Assembly: GCA_039973685.1 (NCBI GenBank)
Contig: JBDWKL010000005.1
Span: forward strand, 1-64,000
Source of the DNA: Hyphomicrobiales bacterium
Lineage (GTDB): Bacteria > Pseudomonadota > Alphaproteobacteria > Rhizobiales > JACESI01
Direction: 5' to 3'
DNA: 64,000 nt
Part shown: positions 9,514-21,249 of the stretch, piece after piece
Layout of the letters: each line of letters starts with the position of its first letter
How positions within the stretch are numbered: the stretch's first letter is position 1
Position numbers and translations under genes: made by a program
The notes under the pieces: model-generated
Database searches by the model: none
The model's input: the letters and a program-made list of their open reading frames with translations, nothing else
Told to the model about the DNA's origin: nothing

Positions 9514-9539
9514 AATGGTAATCAAACAAGGAGATGACA

Positions 9540-10163
9540 ATGGGCCATGATCATGACCACGGTGAAGGATCCGAATTATCTGAGACCGCGTTAAGAGTGC
9601 GAGCTTTAGAGTCTTTGTTGACTGAAAAGGGCTATATTGACCCTGCAGCTCTTGATGTAATTGTCGACACTTATGAAAATCAGGTCGGCCCGCGCAATGG
9701 CGCTGAGGTTGTTGCGAAAGCGTGGTCTGATCCAGAATTTTTAGCTTGGCTACGAACAGATGCAACGGCGGCGGTTAATTCTCTCGGCTTTGAAGGGCGA
9801 CAAACAGAACATATGAAGGTGGTCGAAAACACTGACAATGTTCACCACATGGTCGTTTGTACGCTTTGTTCTTGTTATCCTTGGCATGTTTTGGGCTTGC
9901 CACCGATTTGGTATAAATCGGCCCCTTATCGCTCTCGTGCCGTCATGGACCCGCGCGGTGTGCTCGCAGATTTTGGTGTTACGCTGGATGATGATGTTTC
10001 CGTTCAAGTTTGGGATTCAACAGCTGAGCTTCGTTATCTCGTCATCCCCAAAAGGCCTGAGGGGACCGATGGTATGAGCGAGGCTGATCTTGCTGATCTC
10101 GTCACACGCGATTCCATGATTGGGACTGGCGTGGCGCTCAACGTTGGTGAGGTGGCGTCATGA
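9540..10163 (+). CDS. nthA: Nitrile hydratase alpha subunit, cobalt type
   Basis: 207 residues. With the beta subunit it hydrates nitriles to amides. The metal claw C107-T-L-C110-S111-C112 has threonine at the second position, which in this family marks non-corrin cobalt rather than iron; two of these cysteines are normally oxidised. The downstream [18 protein letters not shown] segment is typical. The N-terminus [10 protein letters not shown] is rich in His and could sit near a metal, though this is common in the family. ATG at 9540 lies six bases after AAGGAG; the ATG at 9534 is too close to that site. Its stop overlaps the beta start by four bases (ATGA), so translation is coupled. Confidence 0.96.
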
Positions 10164-10819
10164 ATTCAGGGCATGATCTAGGTGGTATGCAAGGCTTTGG
10201 CCCCGTCATCGGCGAACCAGTGAAACCTGTTTTCCACGGCGAATGGGAAGAACGCGCTCTTGCAATTGTTATTGCGATGGCCGCATCGGGCAAGTGGAAC
10301 CTTGATAAATCACGCCATGCGCGCGAGAGCCTGCCGCCGCCGCAATATCTTAATTCAAGCTATTATCAAATTTGGATTGCGGGCCTAGAGCGCTTAATGG
10401 TTGAGGTTGGTTTGGTGACGAGCGAAGAGCTTGAAACAGGTGAAATGTCGACGCCAGCCATTCCTGTAAAAGGTGTTTTGAAGGCTGACGCGGTAGAAGG
10501 TGTTTTAAAAGCTGGCGGTCATTGCGATCGGCCAATTTCCAACGCTGCAGAATTTGAGATTGGTGATGAGGTGCGGGTTAAAAACTTTCACCCGATGGGC
10601 CATACACGCGCACCGCGTTATGTTCGCGGGCACGTTGGCACCATCATATCAGCCCATGGCGGTTATGTTTATCCAGACAGCAATGCGCGCGGGGATGGTG
10701 AAGACCCGCAATGGCTCTACACTGTTCAATTTGCGGCGGATGAACTTTGGGGTGATGAAGCACGACGTGGTGACCATGTGATGGCGGACCTATGGGAGCC
10801 TTACCTTGAGCGCGCTTGA
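10160..10819 (+). CDS. nthB: Nitrile hydratase beta subunit
   Basis: 219 residues, the usual size. The N-terminal half is helical and wraps the alpha subunit ([16 protein letters not shown] is the standard start); the C-terminal half is an SH3-like barrel with [23 protein letters not shown] and [12 protein letters not shown]. It supplies arginines that hydrogen-bond to the oxidised cysteines of the alpha claw. Coupled to the alpha gene by an ATGA overlap, and to the next gene by a 14-base overlap. Confidence 0.96.
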
Positions 10820-11171
10820 TAAGAATGCGGCTCATTCTGCATTGTTAAAACTTGATAATCTACCCGTGGATGAAGTGGGTGCAGTTTTTGAAGAACCTTG
10901 GCACGCGGAAGTGTTTTCAATCGTTCATCTGCTTGTTGATCGCGGGCAATTTACCGTGAACGAATGGGCGGAAATGCTTGGGGGCGTTATCAAGGAAAAA
11001 CCAGATAATGAGGGCTACTACCAGTGCTGGTTGACGGCTTTGGAACGAATATCTTTGCAAAAAGGGCTTGTTGAAACAGACCCATTGAGTGAACGAAAAG
11101 ACGCATGGGATCGCGCCGCGAGGGCAACGCCGCATGGTGAGCCAATCGTTCTTGGGCGGGATGTAAGTTAG
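10806..11171 (+). CDS. Nitrile hydratase accessory (activator) protein
   Basis: 121 residues, resembling the N-terminal half of a beta subunit: FEEPWHAEVFSIVHLLVDRGQFTVNEWAEML and GYYQCWLTALERI match the beta-subunit helices. Proteins of this kind (P14K/NhlE type) carry cobalt into the alpha subunit by swapping alpha between activator and beta. The TTG start at 10806 follows GGGAG and overlaps the end of the beta gene. The metal-carrying C-terminal tail is short here, and no cobalt transporter of the NhlF type is in the window. Confidence 0.88.
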   Translation: MSALDKNAAHSALLKLDNLPVDEVGAVFEEPWHAEVFSIVHLLVDRGQFTVNEWAEMLGGVIKEKPDNEGYYQCWLTALERISLQKGLVETDPLSERKDAWDRAARATPHGEPIVLGRDVS

Positions 11172-11188
11172 AAAAATCAGGGATTAAT

Positions 11189-12502
11189 ATGAGCGGCAAC
11201 TCTAGTATTTACGGTATGCTTTCAAGTGTTTTTGAACGGGCAATCGTCTTTTCAAAATCGACTGATAAACGCTCCACCTCGGAGCTTTGTGACGCATTGT
11301 TGTCTGGGCGCGGTGAAGCGTCGGGCACCAAGATTGCACACGCCTTATTCACTAAATATGAGACGTTGAGCGTTGAGGAGAAGCAGGAGTTCTTTTTTTA
11401 TCTCAATGAAAACCTTGATGTTGCGACAGATGACGCGACTGCGGCAGCAACGGAATATGCAGCGAACAGATCAGCGGATGCGCTGAAAAACCTTCGCAAA
11501 TTGTGTGAACCAAAACGGCTTGATTTGTTGCGCCAATTAAACAGTGCACCAGGTGGGACTGAGCGGTTGGTTCGTATGCGGGAAGATTTGTTGGGCATGT
11601 TGAACGATGCCTCGCGCCTCAAGCGTACCGATGCTGATTTTGAATATTTGTTTTCCTCTTGGTTCAATCGCGGCTTCCTCGTGTTGCGCCCCATTGATTG
11701 GACGACACCAGCTCATATTCTTGAAAAAGTAATCTCTTATGAGGCAGTCCACGAAATTTCCAGCTGGGATGATTTGCGCCGCAGGCTCTTACCTGAAGAT
11801 CGACGCTGCTATGCGTTTTTTCATCCGGCGATGCCCGATGAGCCTTTGATCTTTGTCGAGATTGCACTCACCAATGAGATTGCAACGTCTATCCAAACTG
11901 TTTTGGCGGAAGGCCGTGATGAAATAGCGGCGGAAGAGGCGAGTGCTGCTGTTTTTTATTCAATTTCTAATTGCCAAAAAGGCCTGCAAGGTGTGTCCTT
12001 CGGCAACTTCTTGATTAAACAAGTTGCCAGTGATTTGGCGCATGATCTGCCGAATTTGAAAACTTTCGTGACACTCTCCCCAGTGCCGACTTTTTCGCGA
12101 TGGCTTTCAAAATCCTCGCAAGAGGAACCCGATGGCAAAGCACATGAAGCGTTGGGAGCTGTTCAATCAATTGAAGACGGGCAAGGGCTAGAACGCATTG
12201 TTGGTTTGAAAGATAATCTGACGGAATTAGCGGCACACTATTTCATCAATGAAAAACGGCCTGACGGCATGCCGATTGATCCGGTGGCGCGATTCCATCT
12301 TGGTAATGGTGCAAGCTTATTGCAGATTAATTGGGCGGGTGATGTTTCAATGAAGGGGCTGAAACAGTCGGCAGGTTTGATGGTGAACTATCTCTATAAC
12401 CTTCAAGATGTGGAAGCTAACCACGAAACCTATGCGCAAGACCGCGTTGTGGTGGCTCATAAATCTGTAAAAACATTGGCTGACAAGGCGCTGCGATCTT
12501 AA
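11189..12502 (+). CDS. Malonyl-CoA decarboxylase
   Basis: 437 residues. Converts malonyl-CoA to acetyl-CoA and CO2. The N-terminal helical domain covers about residues 60-150; the catalytic GNAT-like domain shows VFYSISNCQKGLQGVSFGN, LKTFVTLSPVPTF with the active-site region, and FHLGNGASLLQINWAGD near the end. Start ATG 11189 is 17 bases after the nitrile hydratase activator stop with AGGGAT-like spacing, so it is probably in the same operon. Malonyl-CoA decarboxylases are usually found with malonate uptake and malonyl-CoA synthetase genes; neither is here. Confidence 0.95.
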   Translation: MSGNSSIYGMLSSVFERAIVFSKSTDKRSTSELCDALLSGRGEASGTKIAHALFTKYETLSVEEKQEFFFYLNENLDVATDDATAAATEYAANRSADALKNLRKLCEPKRLDLLRQLNSAPGGTERLVRMREDLLGMLNDASRLKRTDADFEYLFSSWFNRGFLVLRPIDWTTPAHILEKVISYEAVHEISSWDDLRRRLLPEDRRCYAFFHPAMPDEPLIFVEIALTNEIATSIQTVLAEGRDEIAAEEASAAVFYSISNCQKGLQGVSFGNFLIKQVASDLAHDLPNLKTFVTLSPVPTFSRWLSKSSQEEPDGKAHEALGAVQSIEDGQGLERIVGLKDNLTELAAHYFINEKRPDGMPIDPVARFHLGNGASLLQINWAGDVSMKGLKQSAGLMVNYLYNLQDVEANHETYAQDRVVVAHKSVKTLADKALRS

Positions 12503-12524
12503 GCCTTAGGGCTTTGACCTGAAA

Positions 12525-12776
12525 TCAATCGCCGCCGCCTGCGTCGCCGCCTCCGTCACCACCGTAATATCCGCCATAGTATCCGCCAATACCGCCATCA
12601 CCATCATTTCCCCAACGTCTGCCTGAACGCTTGGGCGCGCGCTTGTAGTATAAGAATTCTTTGTTGGCGAGATCATCAAATATGGATAAATTAATCCCAA
12701 GAAGTTTCAGATTGATTATTAGTACGAAAGCGACAATTCCAATAAGAAGAAGGCCATCCATATTTTTATCTTTCAT
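12525..12776 (-). CDS. Small membrane protein with Gly/Tyr/Asp-rich tail, unknown
   Basis: 83 residues: one hydrophobic helix at about 9-26, a basic stretch YYKRAPKRSGRRWG, then a tail made almost only of Gly, Tyr and Asp with repeated GGYYGG and DGGGD units. No family recognised. It is convergent with malonyl-CoA decarboxylase, 22 bases apart. The ribosome site is weak, so the start is unsure (ATG 12776 or 12761). Proteins of this shape may be secreted or wall-associated, but nothing more can be said. Confidence 0.5.
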   Translation of the reverse strand: MKDKNMDGLLLIGIVAFVLIINLKLLGINLSIFDDLANKEFLYYKRAPKRSGRRWGNDGDGGIGGYYGGYYGGDGGGDAGGGD

Positions 12777-12966
12777 TTTTGAATTTGAAAATTGAATTTC
12801 AAATTAAATATTGTCATAAATTCCTTTATTAGGGATTTAGGGTGATAAAAATAAGGTCTAATATTTAATTTGTTTTGATTTATAATTGGAATTATTGCTG
12901 ATATAATTAACAGTAGGTTTTGATGTTGATTAAAGTCTGTGATTAAAGGCAATATAAAGCACGGTT

Positions 12967-13581
12967 TCAGCAAGTTGTTTTTTTGAAAATGACTGAAAGA
13001 TTGTTGGCTGGCATCTCGATGATCGTTGGCGGGGTAAAACCTTTTTCAATGCCGAGTGCTGTCATGTCATCAATATGACGCAGCCCGCCGCCCGGATTTT
13101 CTGCATGTAACTTTGCATCAAAAGCCACGTTGCTTGGGGCGGTCTCAATGTCACTGCGATGGAACGGACCATAGAAAAACAAAGGCGCATCACTCGGGAG
13201 TAATTGGCCCGCCAGTTTAAACAGCGCGACCGTTGCAGCCCATGGTGCTATGTGGATCACATTGGCAGAGATCACAGCATCTGCCTTTTCAATCGGGGCG
13301 TCATCTTCTAGCAGGTCAAAAGCAAAGGGGTGACGAATGTTGGGAAGTTTAGTTTCCTCAGTCCATGCTATTATGCTTTCCAGTTTTACAGGGTCGCGTT
13401 CGGTCGGCTGAAAGGTAAGGTTGCCAAATTTTTCAGCAAAATGAATGACATGTTCACCCGTGCCTGACCCAATTTCCAATACCACGCCGCTGTCTGGTAA
13501 GACTGACTGCAAAATGTTCGCGATGGTTTCACGGTTTCTAAGGGCTGAGGGGGCTGAACGACGTTGATCTTGCTGGGTCAT
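12967..13581 (-). CDS. Class I SAM-dependent methyltransferase, DUF938 family
   Basis: 204 residues. The SAM-binding motif is VLEIGSGTGEHVIHFA near residue 35, followed by FQPTERDP and ADAVISANVIHIAPW, all typical of the DUF938 family. The substrate is unknown. Start ATG at 13581 is chosen because AAGG lies seven bases upstream and because it makes an ATGA overlap with the stop of the ureohydrolase gene, a sign of translational coupling. The longer frame to 13644 would run far into that gene. Confidence 0.9.
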   Translation of the reverse strand: MTQQDQRRSAPSALRNRETIANILQSVLPDSGVVLEIGSGTGEHVIHFAEKFGNLTFQPTERDPVKLESIIAWTEETKLPNIRHPFAFDLLEDDAPIEKADAVISANVIHIAPWAATVALFKLAGQLLPSDAPLFFYGPFHRSDIETAPSNVAFDAKLHAENPGGGLRHIDDMTALGIEKGFTPPTIIEMPANNLSVIFKKTTC

Positions 13582-14552
13582 CGTGAAGCCTTGCTTGAAA
13601 CGAGTTGGCATAAAAGCTCGAACATGATGGAAGCGCCGACCCAAGCTGTGCCGCCTGATTGATCAAAGGGTGGGGAAACTTCTACCAAGTCGGCACCGAT
13701 CAAATTCAACCCGTCCAAATGTCGCACCACTTGCTGTGCCTGCCATGTGTTTGGCCCGCCAATTTCTGGTGTGCCGGTACCGGGGCAAAAGGCGGGATCG
13801 ATAAAATCAATATCGTAGCTGACATAGGTTGGCTGGGTGCCAACAACTTGCCGTGCTTCGCTCATGACATCATCGATGCCGCGTGTCATGAAGTCATCAA
13901 TGGTGATGATCGTCACCCCTTGTTCGCGACCCCACCGAATATCTTCATCATCATACATGGTGCCGCGAATACCAATTTGTATAACGCGCTTAGGATCAAG
14001 CAACCCTTCTTCAATCGCACGGCGGAACGGGGTGCCGTGGGTATATTGGGTGCCATCAAAGTAGTCTTTGAATAGGTCAGTGTGCGAATCGAAATGAACC
14101 ATTCCAACAGGACCATCACTCGCAAGCCCACGTAAAATAGGAAGGGAGATCAAATGATCGCCGCCTGCTGTGAGCGGTATAATGCCGTCGCGCTTGAGAT
14201 CAGTATAGGCAGTACTCACCCGTTGCATGGAATCATCAAGGTCAGCAGGGTTTGGGCCAACATCACCAAGGTCAGCACAATTGAACATCTCAAAAGGGCG
14301 CAGGCCAGAGACAGGATGGGCTGCGCGGATCATCGTGGAAAGATCTCTCAACTGACGCGGACCATGGCGCGCGCCGGGCCTATTGGTGGTTCCACCATCC
14401 CAAGGAACGCCAATAATGCCAATATCCACTTTCCCATAATCAGGATCGTCCGCACTTATATAAGGCAGGCGCATGAATGTTGGTACGCCAGCAAATCTTG
14501 GAAGGTCGAAACCTGAAATTGGTTGAAAACGTGGGTCACTTTTTTTGGTCAT
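13578..14552 (-). CDS. Agmatinase-like ureohydrolase (arginase family)
   Basis: 324 residues of the arginase/agmatinase/guanidino-acid hydrolase family, which split urea from a guanidino compound with two Mn (or Ni) ions. Metal motifs are all present: GGDH, HFDSHTD and SYDIDFIDPAF, followed by GTGTPEIGG. Agmatine, guanidinobutyrate, guanidinopropionate or free guanidine are all possible substrates and the motifs alone do not decide. Start ATG 14552 has AAGG seven bases upstream; the ATG at 14579 is an alternative. Coupled to the DUF938 methyltransferase and divergent from a RidA gene. Confidence 0.93.
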   Translation of the reverse strand: MTKKSDPRFQPISGFDLPRFAGVPTFMRLPYISADDPDYGKVDIGIIGVPWDGGTTNRPGARHGPRQLRDLSTMIRAAHPVSGLRPFEMFNCADLGDVGPNPADLDDSMQRVSTAYTDLKRDGIIPLTAGGDHLISLPILRGLASDGPVGMVHFDSHTDLFKDYFDGTQYTHGTPFRRAIEEGLLDPKRVIQIGIRGTMYDDEDIRWGREQGVTIITIDDFMTRGIDDVMSEARQVVGTQPTYVSYDIDFIDPAFCPGTGTPEIGGPNTWQAQQVVRHLDGLNLIGADLVEVSPPFDQSGGTAWVGASIMFELLCQLVSSKASR

Positions 14553-14689
14553 CAGATAGCCTTTGCAATTCGTCGTCATCTTACCCGTGAATTAGTCGTC
14601 GTCCACGTAAATTGTGCAGCCAATTAAAAAATCATAGGCTAAGGTGTTCCCTATTAGGCTGGAATGCGAAAATAAGAATGAGGGCAAAT

Positions 14690-15127
14690 ATGGGCAAAAT
14701 TGAATTTCACCAAATCGCAAAGGCACCTAAGGGCGTTGCGCCATTTTCTCACGCCACTGAGGTGGACGGGTTTATCTTTGTAACAGGGCAAATGCCAACT
14801 TGGCCGGGTGAGCCGGATCGGGCTTTGCCCGAAGGTATTGAAGCTCAAACCCGGCGCGTGATGGATAATCTCATCATCGTCTTGGAGGGCATGGGGTTGG
14901 GCCTTGATGACGTGGCACAGTGCCGCGTTTACATAACCGAATTTGAGCGTGATTATGAGGCGATGAACAAGGTCTATGCCTCTTACTTTCCCGCGGATCG
15001 TTTGCCTGCGCGAACCTGCATTGGCGTTACTGGACTTGCAGTTAAGGCGTTGGTTGAGATTGACATGGTTGCAAGGAGGCCCGATAAATCTGATAATTCA
15101 GATCCGTTACTACTAATGATAGGATGA
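14690..15127 (+). CDS. RidA family (YjgF/YER057c) imine deaminase
   Basis: 145 residues. RidA proteins hydrolyse reactive enamine/imine intermediates released by PLP enzymes. The carboxylate-binding arginine is R108 in LPARTCIGVTGL, and FVTGQMP is the usual strand. Start ATG 14690 follows GAGGG at six bases. The stop lies only four bases before the next gene. Several RidA subfamilies lack deaminase activity; with the arginine present, activity is plausible. Its place beside an aminotransferase gene operon fits the role. Confidence 0.9.
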   Translation: MGKIEFHQIAKAPKGVAPFSHATEVDGFIFVTGQMPTWPGEPDRALPEGIEAQTRRVMDNLIIVLEGMGLGLDDVAQCRVYITEFERDYEAMNKVYASYFPADRLPARTCIGVTGLAVKALVEIDMVARRPDKSDNSDPLLLMIG

Positions 15128-15131
15128 GAAT

Positions 15132-17909
15132 TTGGAATTTGGTTTGGCGATTATTATTGGCCTCATATTTCTAATTGGTGCTCCATTAGGCTGGGTTTCA
15201 TTTTTTAAAATTAATACACAAGCTAGAAAACTCGACGAATTGTCGGGTGAACTTTTCAAGTTAAAAAATCTCGTTGCGAAACTTGAACAAGACGAAGGCT
15301 TATCTTCGCTTTCAGGTGAAGAAACATCTTCTCAAAACATTGCCGAAGAAGGTGCTGCTGATCAGATTGTTCAAGAAGAGGTGGAAAGCGTTGATGCCGA
15401 ACCCACTTTTGATGAGAGCGAAACGGATGAGTTAAGCGCGGCCGCAATCAATGAGCCTGAAAATGTGCCGCCTATTGCCGTTGCTGCTTCTAACAATGCT
15501 GAAAGCACTATCGGCGGTAAACTCAGCGTTTGGGTTGGCGGTGTCACGATGGCGTTGGGGTCAATCTTCCTCGTGCGCTATGCGATTGAAGCTGGTTTCT
15601 TGGGGCCAGCGGCGCGCATTATGATGGGTATCTTATTTGGTGCGCTACTGTGCGGTGTTGGCGAATTCATGCGACGCCGAAATCCTGAGCAGAAGATCGC
15701 AGGATATGAATGGGCTGGTGTGCCTGAAATCTTGACCGCTATTGGCACGTTCGCCCTGTTCGCTGCTATCTTTGCGGCCCATACTTTGTATGAGCTGATT
15801 GGACCGACCACGGCCTTCATCGCCTTAGGCGTGATTGCATTGGCCTCCATGGCAAGCGCCATGTTGCATGGTCCAGCGCTCGCGTCTTTGGGTCTCATTG
15901 GGGCGTTTTGCGTGCCGTTCTTGATAACATCAAGTGACCCGAAAATAATGCCCATCGCGATCTATATCCTCATCGCGGGCGCTGCGGCGATCACGGTTGC
16001 GCGGCTTCGGTTGTGGCGGTGGTTGGCGTTCGCTGCGGCAATTGGCTGGCTGTTTTATGCGTGGCTCTTTCAGAGCGTCGCGCAGAGTAGCGATCAATTC
16101 ATCGTCTTAGGGTTTTTGATGGCTGTATCAGCAGGCGTAATTTTCACCTTTGTGATGTCACTCTATCCGCGCTCACTGGCGATGGTGCAACCGATTGATA
16201 AAATGGCAACCGTGCTGCTCTCGCTGTTTGCTGTACCTTGGATTGCACAAGTACAATTTGCGCATCATTCCTTCATTGCAACGGCTGAAATTATTCTACT
16301 GGTCGCGGTGCCAATGGCGCTTGCCTGTTATTATTCGGCTGTACGCTATGTGGTGTTCTTGCCGATTTTGGTGGCTCTCATTCGCTTTGCTCAATTTGAT
16401 GCGTCAACGATTGCCTTGGTCGATATCGACGCAGCCTTACAACACAGAGCGCCAGCGGACTTCTTGTCGCGCATTGATCTGTCTGTGCTTGGTTGGGTCT
16501 CGCTCTTCTTGTCGCTTGCCACTTTTACTGGTGCTATATGGGCAAGTTTGAATTCTGTCTCACGCGCCGTGGTAGCCTCTGGCGCGATGGTGTTCTTGGT
16601 CGGCATTTTTGTCATCACCTATGGACGCGTGGACGGCTTTGAAACTTCCACCTTGTTCGCCCTTATTGCCCTTGCAGGCTTTGTTGCTTGTCGTGCAGGG
16701 GGTGAATATTTGTCGAAGGCCTTTGGTGACGTAGATGATGAACAGTCTAAAAGTAGAAGCGGTTCGCTTGCGGCTTTCCTTGTCGGATCGCTTGTGTTCT
16801 TGGCTCTTGCCGCCGCGATCTTTTTTGAAAAAGCATCACTCACCGTCGCAATGGGGCTGCTGGTTCCTGCGATGGCATTCACCTATTGGCAGCACAGACT
16901 TTATGTCTTGCGGGCGCTCACACCGTTTTTTGTTATTCCTTATGGATTGCGTCTCTTTGCTGATCCCCTCATTTCGCAAAGTGATTTGAGCGAAACGCCA
17001 TTCTTCAATGTGCTGACCTATGGGTACGGCGTGCCGATGATTGGATTCATCTATGCAGCCCTTGTTCTAACGTCACAGGGACGAGATTTTTTCGCACGGT
17101 TGATGCAGGCGATTGCGATTGCCTCTGTGTCCGTCACGACTGCTATGATAGCGCTGCATTTGGTGGAGCCAGACTTCCGCTTTGTGCAGAATGATAAACA
17201 ACTGCTTTTATGCGCTGTGCTTGTTTTGGTTGGCGGTGGTATCTCACTTGGCCTGACGCGGCTTGCTTCTAAAACATCTGATCATTTTCTCACGTGGGGA
17301 AGTATCGGCATCAGCCTTGCTGGTGTTGCGATGGGTGCATTGGGTCTGTTTGTCTGGCAAAATCCAGTTTGGAATAATGTTGCAATCTCGCAGGGCTTGA
17401 TCCTCAACGAGTTGAATTTTTCTTACCTCTTGCCGTTCTTGCTTTATGGACTGATTGCTTGGCAATCGAATGACAAACGCCCGCGCTGGTATGTTGTTAT
17501 CATCAGTGTCTATTCGGCACTCTTGGGTGCTGCTTGGGTAAATTTCTTAATCCATCATATTTTCCATCCGGGGAATTTCTCATCAAGAATCATTCAAGAT
17601 GCCCAGCAATACACTTACTCTGCTGTATGGCTTTTGATCGGTATTGCTGTCCTCGCTGTCGGTCTCTACACCCGCTCTAAAACATGGCGTGCCGTTTCAG
17701 GTTTGTTGATCGCGGTTGTGGTGGTGAAGGTGTTCTTGGTGGACATGTCAGAACTAACGGGCTTCCTGCGTGCGCTTTCGTTTATTTCGCTCGGTGCCGT
17801 ATTGATGGCGATTGGCTATTTTTATCAACGCATTTTGTCGGGCCAGATGGTGACCTCTGACGGGACAGACGAGGAGCTGGTTGCCAAGCCAAGCGCAAAC
17901 GATGAATAG
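15132..17909 (+). CDS. Large multi-pass membrane protein, DUF2339 family
   Basis: 925 residues. An N-terminal helix at about 4-24, a coiled and acidic cytoplasmic-type stretch to about residue 130 (rich in Glu, Asp, Ala), then IGGKLSVWVGGVTMALGSIFLVRYAIE, the hallmark start of the DUF2339 membrane domain, and more than 20 further membrane helices. Function is unknown across the family. The TTG start at 15132 sits seven bases after AGGA. It lies between RidA and a dehydrogenase gene with gaps of 4 and 23 bases, so it is likely in one operon with them. Confidence 0.9.
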   Translation: MEFGLAIIIGLIFLIGAPLGWVSFFKINTQARKLDELSGELFKLKNLVAKLEQDEGLSSLSGEETSSQNIAEEGAADQIVQEEVESVDAEPTFDESETDELSAAAINEPENVPPIAVAASNNAESTIGGKLSVWVGGVTMALGSIFLVRYAIEAGFLGPAARIMMGILFGALLCGVGEFMRRRNPEQKIAGYEWAGVPEILTAIGTFALFAAIFAAHTLYELIGPTTAFIALGVIALASMASAMLHGPALASLGLIGAFCVPFLITSSDPKIMPIAIYILIAGAAAITVARLRLWRWLAFAAAIGWLFYAWLFQSVAQSSDQFIVLGFLMAVSAGVIFTFVMSLYPRSLAMVQPIDKMATVLLSLFAVPWIAQVQFAHHSFIATAEIILLVAVPMALACYYSAVRYVVFLPILVALIRFAQFDASTIALVDIDAALQHRAPADFLSRIDLSVLGWVSLFLSLATFTGAIWASLNSVSRAVVASGAMVFLVGIFVITYGRVDGFETSTLFALIALAGFVACRAGGEYLSKAFGDVDDEQSKSRSGSLAAFLVGSLVFLALAAAIFFEKASLTVAMGLLVPAMAFTYWQHRLYVLRALTPFFVIPYGLRLFADPLISQSDLSETPFFNVLTYGYGVPMIGFIYAALVLTSQGRDFFARLMQAIAIASVSVTTAMIALHLVEPDFRFVQNDKQLLLCAVLVLVGGGISLGLTRLASKTSDHFLTWGSIGISLAGVAMGALGLFVWQNPVWNNVAISQGLILNELNFSYLLPFLLYGLIAWQSNDKRPRWYVVIISVYSALLGAAWVNFLIHHIFHPGNFSSRIIQDAQQYTYSAVWLLIGIAVLAVGLYTRSKTWRAVSGLLIAVVVVKVFLVDMSELTGFLRALSFISLGAVLMAIGYFYQRILSGQMVTSDGTDEELVAKPSANDE

Positions 17910-17932
17910 TGTTCCCCACAGGGGATGCATAA

Positions 17933-19240
17933 ATGAACTATGTGAAACGAGCAGAAGCAGAAGCTGAACAAGAAGATCAACGTATTCGCGAGAGTGTTGA
18001 AAACATGATCGCGGACATCCGCGCGAATGGTGAAACGGCTGTTCGCTCTTATGCTGAAAAGTTCGATGGTTGGGTTGGCGATTTTGTTCTGTCTGCTGAA
18101 AAGAAGGCGGCCTTGATTGCTCAGGTGTCTGACCAAGAAAAAGAAGACATCCAATTTGCTTTTCGCCAAGTGACCCGTTTTGCCGAAGCGCAGCGGGCAA
18201 GCTTAAGCGAATTCTCCATTGAGACTGAACCGGGCGTTGTACTGGGACAAAAAGTTGTGCCCGTAAATTGCGCTGGTTGCTATGTGCCAGGTGGCCGATA
18301 TTCTCACGCGGCATCTGCCATTATGAGCGTTGCAACGGCGAAGGTTGCGGGCGTTCCTTTTGTGGTCGCCGCTAGCCCGCCGCGTGGTGATAGCATTGCG
18401 CCCGCTGTCGCTTATGCGATGGATATTGCTGGTGCTGACGTGATTTTGGAAATGGGCGGTGTTCATGCCATTGCAACCATGGCCTTCGGACTATTTGGCG
18501 CTGAGCCAGCGGATATTTTAGTTGGACCGGGCAATGCCTATGTGGCAGAGGCCAAGCGCTTGTTGTTTGGTGAAGTCGGTATCGACGTTTTTGCCGGCCC
18601 AACAGAAAGCGCGATCATCGCCGATGAAACGGCGGACCCGATGACGGTTGCAATCGACCTTGCCAGTCAAGCAGAGCACGGCACCAATTCTCCCGTTTGG
18701 CTTTTTACAACGTCGCAAGAATTGGCAGACACTGTAAATCGTATCTTGCCAAAGATAGCAGACGACATGCCAAGCGGCGAGGTGGTGAAGGCTGCTTGGG
18801 CAAATCATGGTGAGATTATTGTTGGCGAGAGCGATGAAGAAGTAGCCGCTATTTCTGATCACTATGCCAGCGAGCATTTGCAGGTGATTACCAAGAATAA
18901 TGATTGGTGGAAGGCGCGGCTTAAAAACTACGGCTCCCTATTCGTCGGCGAAGGTGCGACCGTGACGCACGGTGATAAGTGCTCTGGCACCAACCACATT
19001 CTGCCGACCAAAAAGGCGGCTCGTTATACAGGCGGCTTGAACGTCATGAAGTTTTTGAAAATCCTGACATGGCAAGAAATCAGCGAAGAAGCGAACCTTG
19101 CTTTTAGCGCTGCCGGTTCTCGCATAAGCCGCATTGAAGGCATGGACGGTCATGCGCGCGCTTGCGATTGGCGCTTGCGCAAATACCATGAAGGCACCAA
19201 TTGGGACTTCGAAGTGACGGACCAAAAGCGATATGACTGA
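17933..19240 (+). CDS. HisD-family dehydrogenase, HpsN-like (sulfopropanediol dehydrogenase branch)
   Basis: 435 residues. Histidinol-dehydrogenase-fold enzymes oxidise an alcohol to an acid in two NAD steps using zinc. The catalytic and metal residues are kept: SQAEHG, SEHLQV, HGDKCSGTNHILPT and the last His in EGMDGHARACDWR. The segment VNCAGCYVPGGRYSHAASAI is that of the HpsN branch (which acts on 2,3-dihydroxypropane-1-sulfonate), not of biosynthetic HisD, where different residues follow YVPGG. The C-terminus carries about 16 more residues than I remember for HpsN. Substrate unproven. It overlaps the next gene by eight bases and follows DUF2339 by 23. Confidence 0.88.
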   Translation: MNYVKRAEAEAEQEDQRIRESVENMIADIRANGETAVRSYAEKFDGWVGDFVLSAEKKAALIAQVSDQEKEDIQFAFRQVTRFAEAQRASLSEFSIETEPGVVLGQKVVPVNCAGCYVPGGRYSHAASAIMSVATAKVAGVPFVVAASPPRGDSIAPAVAYAMDIAGADVILEMGGVHAIATMAFGLFGAEPADILVGPGNAYVAEAKRLLFGEVGIDVFAGPTESAIIADETADPMTVAIDLASQAEHGTNSPVWLFTTSQELADTVNRILPKIADDMPSGEVVKAAWANHGEIIVGESDEEVAAISDHYASEHLQVITKNNDWWKARLKNYGSLFVGEGATVTHGDKCSGTNHILPTKKAARYTGGLNVMKFLKILTWQEISEEANLAFSAAGSRISRIEGMDGHARACDWRLRKYHEGTNWDFEVTDQKRYD

Positions 19241-20435
19241 CACGGTGTTCAACAAGCCCTTTACGCAACAAGAAGCAATCCCAGAAGTGGCGATTGAACG
19301 CGCTGTCGACATTCTGCGCGGTGGGCGTTTGCATCGTTATAACACGCTGGCCGATGAGACGGCTGAAGTCTCGCTGCTAGAAGAAGAATATGCCGCCTAT
19401 CAAGAAGCCAAATATTGTCTGGCGGTCACCTCTGGCGGACAGGCGATGCAGATTGCGTTGCGAGCGGCGGGTTTGAAGGCAGGGGACAAAATTCTCGCCA
19501 ACGCCTATACGCTCGCCCCTGTGCCTGGTGCTATTCACGTTGCAGGCGGTGTGCCTGTGTTTGTTGAAACGGGGCAAGATTGGCGCGTTGATATTGCAGA
19601 CCTTGCGGCCAAAGCAGAGGAGAGCGGCGCGAAGTTTTTTATGCTGTCCCATATGCGCGGCCACATTGCAGATATGGATGCCATCGTTGAAATTTGTGAA
19701 AAGTACGACATCACGCTGATTGAAGATTGTGCCCATACAATGGGTGCGCGATGGAAGGGTGTTCGCTCTGGAAACTTTGGGCGTGTCGCGTGTTTTTCAA
19801 CGCAGACTTATAAGCATATCAATTCTGGCGAAGGCGGTTTTCTCACTACCAATGATGAAGAACTAGCTGCTCGCGCAGTCATCATGTCGGGTTCGTATAT
19901 GCTTTATGGCCGTCATGGTGCGGCGCCATCTGAAGCAGCGTTTCATCAGGTGCGATTAGAAACACCTAATTGTTCCGCACGGCTAGATAATTTACGTGGC
20001 GCACTCCTTCGCGCTCAACTGTCTTTGTTGGATGACAATATTGCGCGATGGAACGAGCGTTACCGTGCCCTTGAGGTGGGATTGAAATCCGTTGCTGGTG
20101 CGCAAATCGTGGAGCGGGCGCAGCATGAAGCATTCGTTGGATCGTCGTTTCAATTTCACGCTTTGGGCGTTGATGATATTCCGACCTTTGTTGCTCGCCT
20201 TGCAAAACGCGGTGTGGAGCTTAAGTGGTTTGGCGCGGATGAGCCCGTGGCCTTCACCAGCCGCTATGATAGCTGGCAGTATTTTGATGACCTGCCAGAC
20301 CTCGTGCAGACCAAGCAGGCACTCGCCACGACATTGGACATGCGTGTACCGCTCACCTTCAGTGTTGAGGACTGTTCGCTTATTGCAAGCATTATTGCTG
20401 ACGAATTGGGCCAAGTATCTACCGCTAGGGCCTAG
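19233..20435 (+). CDS. DegT/DnrJ/EryC1/StrS-type PLP aminotransferase
   Basis: 400 residues of the fold-type I sugar-aminotransferase family. PLP residues: AVTSGGQAMQIAL for phosphate binding, EDCAHTMGA with the pyridine-N aspartate, and the Schiff-base lysine in STQTYKHINSGEGGF. These enzymes usually aminate keto-sugars, but some act on other ketones. Here no sugar-nucleotide gene is near; the partners are an HpsN-like dehydrogenase (eight-base overlap) and RidA, which suggests a small-molecule pathway. Start ATG at 19233 lies inside the end of the preceding gene. Confidence 0.92.
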   Translation: MTDTVFNKPFTQQEAIPEVAIERAVDILRGGRLHRYNTLADETAEVSLLEEEYAAYQEAKYCLAVTSGGQAMQIALRAAGLKAGDKILANAYTLAPVPGAIHVAGGVPVFVETGQDWRVDIADLAAKAEESGAKFFMLSHMRGHIADMDAIVEICEKYDITLIEDCAHTMGARWKGVRSGNFGRVACFSTQTYKHINSGEGGFLTTNDEELAARAVIMSGSYMLYGRHGAAPSEAAFHQVRLETPNCSARLDNLRGALLRAQLSLLDDNIARWNERYRALEVGLKSVAGAQIVERAQHEAFVGSSFQFHALGVDDIPTFVARLAKRGVELKWFGADEPVAFTSRYDSWQYFDDLPDLVQTKQALATTLDMRVPLTFSVEDCSLIASIIADELGQVSTARA

Positions 20436-20502
20436 ACGTTCACCGTGCCGTTTGTTTATAAGGTTTTGAACGAAGAAACGAGACAAAGCGCGAGAACGCA
20501 TC

Positions 20503-21249
20503 ATGGCAGGCCACAGTAAATTTAAGAACATCCAGTACCGCAAAGGTGCGCAGGACGCGAAACGCTCTAAGATGTTCTCAAAGCTATCAAAAGAGATCAC
20601 GGTTGCAGCCAAAATGGGCGGCGGCGATGTGGACGGCAATCCGCGCCTTCGCCTTGCTGTTCAAAACGCGCGCGGCCAGTCGATGCCGAAAGACAATATC
20701 GAACGCGCCATCAAAAAAGCTGAGGGCGGCGACGCGGATACATACGAAGAAATTCGCTATGAAGGCTACGGCCCCGGCGGTGTTGCTGTTATCGTTGAAT
20801 GCTTGACGGATAACCGCAACCGTTCTGCCTCTTCTGTTCGCTCAACCTTCACGAAGAATGGCGGCGCGATGGGTGAAACTGGTTCTGTCGGTTTCATGTT
20901 CAACCGCGTTGGCGAAGTCGTTTATCCCGCAGATGCGGGTGATGCTGATAGCATTATGGAAGCAGCCATTGAAGCGGGTGCAGAAGATTGCGAAAGCGAT
21001 GAAGATGGCCACTTTATTACTTGCGCCTTTGAAGATCTCGGCGATGTGTCAAAAGCACTCGGCGAAGCCTTGGGTGAAGCAGAAAGCGTGAAGCCAAACT
21101 GGAAGCCGCAAACGCTGACACCACTTGATGCGGATAAAGCGGGCACCTTGATGAAGCTCATCAACACTTTGGAAGATGATGACGACGTGCAAAACGTCTA
21201 TTCAAACATGGAAGTTGATGACGAAGTGCTGGCGGCTCTCGAAGGCTAG
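20503..21249 (+). CDS. yebC: YebC/PmpR family regulator (translation factor TACO1-like)
   Basis: 248 residues, full length. Starts [21 protein letters not shown], with the family [20 protein letters not shown] and [16 protein letters not shown] motifs. Long called a DNA-binding regulator; recent work on the family supports a role in easing ribosome stalling. It is normally the neighbour of ruvC in alphaproteobacteria, and here it precedes ruvCAB with an inserted Lrp-LysE pair. Its stop overlaps the end of the convergent Lrp gene by four bases. Confidence 0.96.

Follow-up and report, generated by a model that had tools for sequence, protein, structure and literature searches.

An HpsN-like dehydrogenase paired with a DegT-family aminotransferase: a probable amino-sulfonate gene pair in a Hyphomicrobiales genome

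Do the six genes at positions 12967–20435 of a 64,000-nucleotide stretch of Hyphomicrobiales DNA (the window: positions 1–64,000 of contig JBDWKL010000005.1, assembly GCA_039973685.1, a draft genome of 3.23 Mb in 55 contigs) serve one pathway, or do only some of them belong together? A preliminary description had read them—a ureohydrolase, a DUF938 methyltransferase, a RidA protein, a DUF2339 membrane protein, an HpsN-like dehydrogenase, and a DegT aminotransferase—as a joint route for a guanidino or amino compound, possibly a sulfonate. The observation of the genes was confirmed, with Pfam profiles matching all six in place, and the interpretation was partly supported. The conserved core of the locus is the dehydrogenase, which has the histidinol dehydrogenase (HisD) fold, together with the DegT aminotransferase. 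Judged from sequence and gene context, this pair probably handles small amino-sulfonates, e.g. cysteinolic acid, a major osmolyte of algae. We provisionally regard it as a new variation on known sulfonate metabolism, and the rest of the patch as an ordinary neighbourhood.

The dehydrogenase (17933..19240, plus strand; Pfam Histidinol_dh PF00815, 437 bits), presumed to use zinc and NAD, scored 499 and 449 bits against the PDB sequences of sulfopropanediol 3-dehydrogenase (HpsN; 8v35 and 8wwe, respectively), as compared to 236 bits for the best HisD, and is 55% identical to the plasmid-encoded HpsN of Cupriavidus pinatubonensis (Cp). A G-R-Y-A/S-H motif separates HpsN from HisD, and in HpsN residues E318, H319, and D352 matter for catalysis while K353 and H126 contact the sulfonate (PMC11382572). 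The window enzyme carries GRYSH at residues 121–125 and its catalytic residues at E314/H315 and D348/K349. All five of these catalytic or sulfonate-binding positions (Cp numbering) are conserved in it, and Q248, H251, E318, H319, D352, K353, and H411 are kept throughout its clade as well. In fold family, motif, and catalytic residues it is like the HpsNs of C. pinatubonensis and Ruegeria pomeroyi (Rp), and the name ‘HpsN-like’ given to it at the outset was appropriate. A second HisD-fold paralog in the window genome (L043 8549–10617, on C19; 48% identity to the window enzyme) has GKFPM replacing GRYSH and is followed by an SDR-like gene.

Differences from the known HpsNs emerged in a 30-row tree, rooted at the midpoint only and with the window genome's own histidinol dehydrogenase as a very long branch. 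Here, the window enzyme fell into a separate clade of 12 members with 100/100 support, 11 of which have DegT alongside: six alphaproteobacterial rows (DegT adjacent in 5/6) and six gammaproteobacterial rows (DegT in 6/6, and the cysteate enzymes CuyA and/or CuyB in 5/6). It did not group with hpsO/hpsP-linked HpsNs, as the four hpsO-linked representatives all lay outside this clade; neither hpsO nor hpsP stands beside it, and it is paired with DegT instead. CuyAB-linked HpsNs from alphaproteobacterial plasmids formed another supported clade, together with three HpsNs of the hpsNOP type. The starred branches require the CuyAB label to change three times, which means that HpsNs of more than one lineage are associated with CuyAB. 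A published survey of HpsN neighbourhoods kept 272 of 1000 retrieved HpsNs, namely those with hpsO and hpsP nearby (PMC11382572), and HpsNs of the window type would consequently not have appeared in it.

The partner gene (19233..20435, plus strand; Pfam PF01041, 190 bits) encodes an aminotransferase of the DegT family, whose members use pyridoxal 5′-phosphate (PLP). Its presumed Schiff-base residue, Lys194, lies within the subfamily stretch QTYKHxNSGEGG; in the DegT alignment, the PLP lysine was conserved in 48/48 rows and QTYKH in 45/48. An AlphaFold2 model (pLDDT 87) retrieved DegT-type aminotransferases throughout the 50 Foldseek matches listed (TMq 0.74–0.83, identity ≤27%), so that the predicted structure confirms the family while giving no indication of the substrate. 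Fold and PLP lysine context are common to the window protein and the DegT/DnrJ/EryC1/StrS aminotransferases (scyllo-inositol transaminase, AHBA synthase, Fic25); it differs from these in that its best PDB sequence match reached no more than 112 bits and members of its subfamily are repeatedly found next to sulfonate genes. Among named records, the nearest DegT matches came mostly from alphaproteobacteria, and two congeners had no DegT match at 1e-60.

For the gene neighbourhoods of this subfamily, we tabulated 52 DegT loci, the window included, which are not independent of one another. Left out were L026 (31% DegT identity, scoring too low for the DegT tree, yet present in alignment A2), the duplicates L021 and L063, and six loci without DegT (L001, L002, L035, L040, L041, L043); the short contigs L013, L017, L023, and L025 were kept, and their misses are soft. 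Near DegT were found HpsN (25 loci), CuyA (20), CuyB (16), CuyZ, a YeiH-family exporter (10), TauC (10), an OpuAC importer (9), an FAD/GcvT demethylase (8), and MttB (7). Proximity of HpsN and DegT spans alpha-, beta-, and gammaproteobacteria as well as plasmids, and the pair recurs beside CuyA, CuyB, CuyZ, and sulfonate-type importers, which supports the initial guess of a sulfonate.

HpsO and HpsP were found in none of the 52 loci, including at 40% identity with more references, whereas a control at 50% identity recovered HpsO from 20 of 34 HpsN loci and HpsP from 22. SuyB, ComE, and SlcD-like proteins were likewise absent from all 52, also at 40% identity, but these are weaker zeros, their control being positive only in the source records. 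The HpsO, HpsP, SuyB, and SlcD-like references were named by position in hpsN clusters, not by assay. Conversely, among 30 HpsN loci retrieved from the same class with an hpsNOP-type query, 19 had hpsO or hpsP, and DegT occurred in none of these 19 (~4 kb stretch each).

Ten plasmid records contained a DegT match at E-values up to 1e-60. In the stretch read, every one of them carries a CuyA-like gene, an annotated amino acid racemase, an HpsN-like gene within 5 kb (in L095 as matches in two pieces with no annotated gene), and an importer, be it TauABC, another ABC system, or TRAP; six of the ten records also annotate a YeiH-family ‘sulfate exporter’. CuyA and CuyB passed the NCBIfam equivalog cut-offs in all five plasmid clusters scanned out of 11 (L090–L093 and L102), and also in L019. 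At the genome level, DegT occurred in 20 and HpsN in 30 of 385 genomes of the class (E-value limits 1e-110 and 1e-130), with both in 18 (Fisher p 4e-21, uncorrected for phylogeny) and, counted by family, in 12 of the 13 families with DegT. That both counts refer to the same 385 genomes was inferred from agreeing identifiers and counts; the GRY motif is missing from one of the 30 HpsN sequences matched (G366, L161).

A plasmid of Ruegeria sp. SCSIO 43209 (L102, 4170–7197) presents the compact series LysR–CuyA–CuyB–HpsN-like, for which the record's labels are D-cysteine desulfhydrase, amino acid racemase, and histidinol dehydrogenase; no DegT, hpsO, hpsP, or annotated sulfolactate dehydrogenase lies nearby. 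This gene content would be enough for cysteinolate, but not for 2,3-dihydroxypropane-1-sulfonate (DHPS).

The demethylases near DegT belong to one ortholog group (L036 vs. L010, L090, and L092: 59–68% identity), as do the MttB proteins (L036 vs. L092: 60%); an OpuAC importer often accompanies them. Speculatively, demethylase, MttB, and importer point to an N-methylated form of the substrate. In L036 (6173–19780), OpuAC importer, LysR, MttB, FAD/GcvT demethylase, HpsN-like, DDAH/ADI-like, DegT, and ureohydrolase genes form a single run; in L078, OpuAC, MttB, demethylase, and ureohydrolase lie near DegT with CuyA present and HpsN absent. These sets suggest an N-methylated, perhaps guanidino, sulfonate.

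In HisD and HpsN, the same zinc site is bound by the substrate's amino group and C2 hydroxyl, respectively, with imidazole or sulfonate at the other site (PMC11382572). Cysteinolic acid unites the HisD-type amino group with the HpsN-type sulfonate, from which its oxidation to cysteate can be inferred directly. The reading that we favour, if at slightly less than an even chance, is a two-enzyme module for C3-(amino)sulfonates with deduced substrates and direction. The HpsN-like enzyme would use two NAD+ to convert a propane-1-sulfonate that has OH or NH2 at C2 into the corresponding acid, by oxidising the neighbouring primary alcohol; its preferred substrate would be cysteinolic acid, which is to the sulfonates what histidinol is to the imidazoles, and the product cysteate. 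DegT would shift the C2 amino group, most likely interconverting cysteinolate and 3-hydroxy-2-oxopropane-1-sulfonate, an alpha-hydroxyketone of the kind on which DegT enzymes typically work, in contrast to 2-oxoacids. In complete clusters, CuyB would then racemise cysteate, the D-cysteate sulfo-lyase CuyA would yield pyruvate, ammonium, and sulfite, and CuyZ would export the sulfite; the window holds just the two core enzymes, with RidA perhaps clearing imine by-products. It is possible, though on balance doubtful, that hpsN-like–degT–cuyB–cuyA(–cuyZ) constitutes the bacterial catabolic set for cysteinolic acid, with DegT newly recruited to sulfonate metabolism; clusters with the conserved demethylase, MttB, and OpuAC-type importer would in that case use an N-methylated (betaine) form of it, a compound of which we have seen no description.

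A number of observations weigh against the two-enzyme module. Its DegT step is the least certain, because converting cysteinolate to cysteate needs no DegT. HpsN was absent from the stretch read in 27 of the 52 DegT loci (some of them short contigs), and L036–L038 had entered the table through HpsN. L035 has an HpsN of the same clade without DegT, and the DegT-linked HpsN of L081 groups with that of C. pinatubonensis, so DegT linkage is no marker of one HpsN type. The sulfolactate dehydrogenases SlcC and ComC lay outside the neighbourhood search, and in L097 an Ldh-family oxidoreductase sits ~7 kb upstream of DegT. CpHpsN is reported to be without activity on L-histidinol (PMC11382572), and the efficiency of RpHpsN on this compound to be 691-fold below that on R-DHPS; with such poor use, it is not evident that known HpsNs readily accept an amino group at C2. 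Finally, Cp position 321, considered as a specificity residue from a comparison of four hpsO-linked with 21 DegT- or cuy-linked rows, was discarded after 5 of 19 further hpsO/P-linked HpsNs were seen to share the H/Q found in the DegT-linked proteins.

The window genome itself adds to these objections. Searches of it returned no CuyA (NF052482; best score 34.6 bits, cut-off 450; BLAST with the L018 enzyme also empty), no CuyB (NF052483; 34.2 bits, cut-off 190), no sulfopyruvate decarboxylase ComE (34.5 bits, cut-off 221.5), and, at 1e-30, no SuyB of the SuyAB sulfolactate sulfo-lyase, for which the hpsN locus of C. pinatubonensis supplied the query, a UxaA-family protein assigned as SuyB. Xsc (953 bits), which acts together with ComE in the Xsc route for C3 sulfonates, was the sole desulfonation gene present among those sought. 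While relatives of the window pair share a cluster with CuyA, CuyB, and, in 10/52 loci, a YeiH-family exporter, the organism's local pathway is truncated or ends another way. Congener G001 has CuyA (544 bits) and SuyB, and congener G002 has ComE (232 bits). Xsc is encoded elsewhere in the window genome (L105, C3:12500–32400) with a phosphotransacetylase-like gene, where an ABC importer of the branched-chain type (by eye) is close by; the same region carries another arginase-family gene, MttB, and an FAD/GcvT demethylase (Pfam).

Could the dehydrogenase simply be an ordinary R-DHPS 3-dehydrogenase, with DegT as the missing sulfopyruvate aminotransferase (DHPS to sulfolactate, sulfopyruvate, and L-cysteate, then CuyB and CuyA)? 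For R. pomeroyi, both the aminotransferase and CuyB have been stated to be unidentified (PMC11382572). In 8/10 plasmid clusters DegT is flanked immediately by CuyA on one side and the racemase on the other, and L012, L016, and L078 combine DegT with CuyA, HpsN being absent from the stretch read. SuyB matches (65–68% identity) turned up in 5/8 genomes searched, and four relatives with an HpsN of the window clade have SuyB; this is compatible with plain DHPS use and counts among the results against the favoured module. What makes this explanation rather unlikely in our view is the absence of HpsO/P and SlcD-like genes beside DegT in the 52 loci (SlcC/ComC being outside that search), the usual preference of DegT enzymes, which also holds for the structural neighbours, and the CuyAB–HpsN set of L102 without DegT.

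A serious rival, though unlikely, is an anabolic or salvage role, in which DegT would make an amino-sulfonate (cysteinolate, as an osmolyte or lipid head group) and the HpsN-like enzyme would balance it with DHPS or sulfolactate. Roseobacters contain an aminolipid with a cysteinolic acid head group and are said to both produce and metabolise cysteinolic acid (PMC11631085). Because of this aminolipid, we raised the probability of the anabolic role by a small step and lowered that of the favoured module, by as much, from an even chance. R. pomeroyi contains cysteinolic acid by a biosynthesis described as unknown (PMC8319176). The lack of CuyA, CuyB, ComE, and SuyB in the window genome fits this alternative, as do DegT homologs with 55–57% identity to the window protein in four genomes of one family (L071, L073, L075, L077), which stand beside phosphatase, glmU, and glmS genes (by eye), away from sulfonate or catabolic genes, and perhaps serve cysteinolate synthesis. 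By contrast, the importer, LysR, CuyA, racemase, and, in several cases, annotated exporter of the plasmid clusters argue for catabolism.

The remaining four genes look like local neighbours. Divergent from the core operon, a DUF938 methyltransferase predicted to depend on S-adenosylmethionine (12967..13581, minus strand; Pfam PF06080, 201 bits) and a ureohydrolase (13578..14552, minus; Pfam Arginase PF00491, 302 bits) overlap by 4 bases (ATGA). On the plus strand, the RidA-family protein, a presumed enamine/imine deaminase (14690..15127; Pfam Ribonuc_L-PSP PF01042, 97 bits), is followed after 4 bases by the large DUF2339 membrane protein (15132..17909, with a TTG start; Pfam PF10101, 321 bits), an operon member by spacing, and after a further 23 bases by the dehydrogenase, which overlaps DegT by 8. 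Between the two operons, whose ATG starts probably lie at 14552 and 14690, there are 137 bases (14553..14689), close to the ~140 given previously, and the tight packing was reproduced in every interval. Promoter- or terminator-like matches in a scan of 12500–20600 were no better than chance, and none promoter-like was listed for the divergent region.

The claim of a single six-gene pathway fared worse. The ureohydrolase is nearest to 3-guanidinopropionase (GpuA; PDB 3nip, 402 bits), ahead of guanidinobutyrase (3nio, 312 bits) and agmatinase (193 bits), and this, together with the tight spacing and divergent start, speaks for a guanidino-compound route. However, among the other ureohydrolase matches, none of the top 11 (59–75% identity) keeps any of the other five genes within ~1.4 kb, nor was the HpsN–DegT pair near them. 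In a congener (L042), RidA (85% identical to window RidA) lies directly upstream of DegT and overlaps it, with a divergent DUF938 ortholog (58%), but ureohydrolase, DUF2339, and dehydrogenase are missing. RidA was near DegT in just 2 of the 52 loci, and a DUF2339 homolog was absent from the other clustered loci. Ureohydrolase and DUF938 are separable neighbours of the HpsN–DegT pair. For a guanidino compound, the case is weak rather than nil: a ureohydrolase of another type occurs near DegT in 3/52 loci (L011, L036, L078), two of which (L011, L036) also have a DDAH/ADI-like gene, yet the L011 enzyme shares no more than 30% identity with the ureohydrolase of the window. We thus rejected the six-gene guanidino pathway as a working model and keep it as a weak, highly improbable rival. 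In L011 (14038–17465), HypB-like (cobW family) and HypA-like (by eye) genes and two arginase-family genes lie 3–6 kb from an HpsN–DegT pair, a set which we take to resemble that of guanidine hydrolase (GdmH).

The complete six-gene set was found at no other locus (fetched loci, 52-locus DegT table, and 11 ureohydrolase loci), so the expectation of a conserved order failed for the whole set and held for the HpsN–DegT pair; an assembly of chance neighbours with no shared role, as the restriction of the set to the window genome might suggest, deserves next to no credence, being strongly disfavoured for HpsN and DegT by their proximity across three proteobacterial classes and plasmids and their genome-wide co-occurrence, although for ureohydrolase, DUF938, and DUF2339 it may be right.

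Cysteinolic acid can exceed dimethylsulfoniopropionate in algal cells (PMC8703288). In the parts available of the literature since 2019 (PMC8703288, PMC9695272, PMC8319176, PMC11131964, PMC8027193, PMC11631085), we found no catabolic gene for it named, and PMC8027193 had the term only in a reference title; a 2022 review by Burchill and Williams lay outside the search and may name one. Searches on cysteinolate, on cysteate with DegT, and on degradation gave nothing of use, with most subscription journals outside their reach. The signature of HpsN without HpsO/HpsP plus DegT, CuyA, and CuyB would make bacterial cysteinolate flux testable and trackable in metagenomes, and the pair would be relevant to the CuyA route, whose aminotransferase is reported to be missing (PMC11382572). 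It also calls into question the ‘histidinol dehydrogenase’ label of HpsN-like genes in plasmid records.

Some minor features of the region complete the inventory. RidA scored 92 bits against NCBIfam TIGR00004, below the cut-off of 106; it retains Arg at residue 108, which we take to be the family's catalytic Arg. At 12525–12776, a small open reading frame that combines a hydrophobic stretch at its N terminus with a tail rich in Gly and Tyr had no Pfam or NCBIfam match. At lower coordinates (9534–12502) lie the alpha and beta genes of nitrile hydratase, a third gene, which carries a beta-N domain, and then malonyl-CoA decarboxylase (Pfam), of which nitrile hydratase alpha and beta and malonyl-CoA decarboxylase are also kept in the congener (L042).

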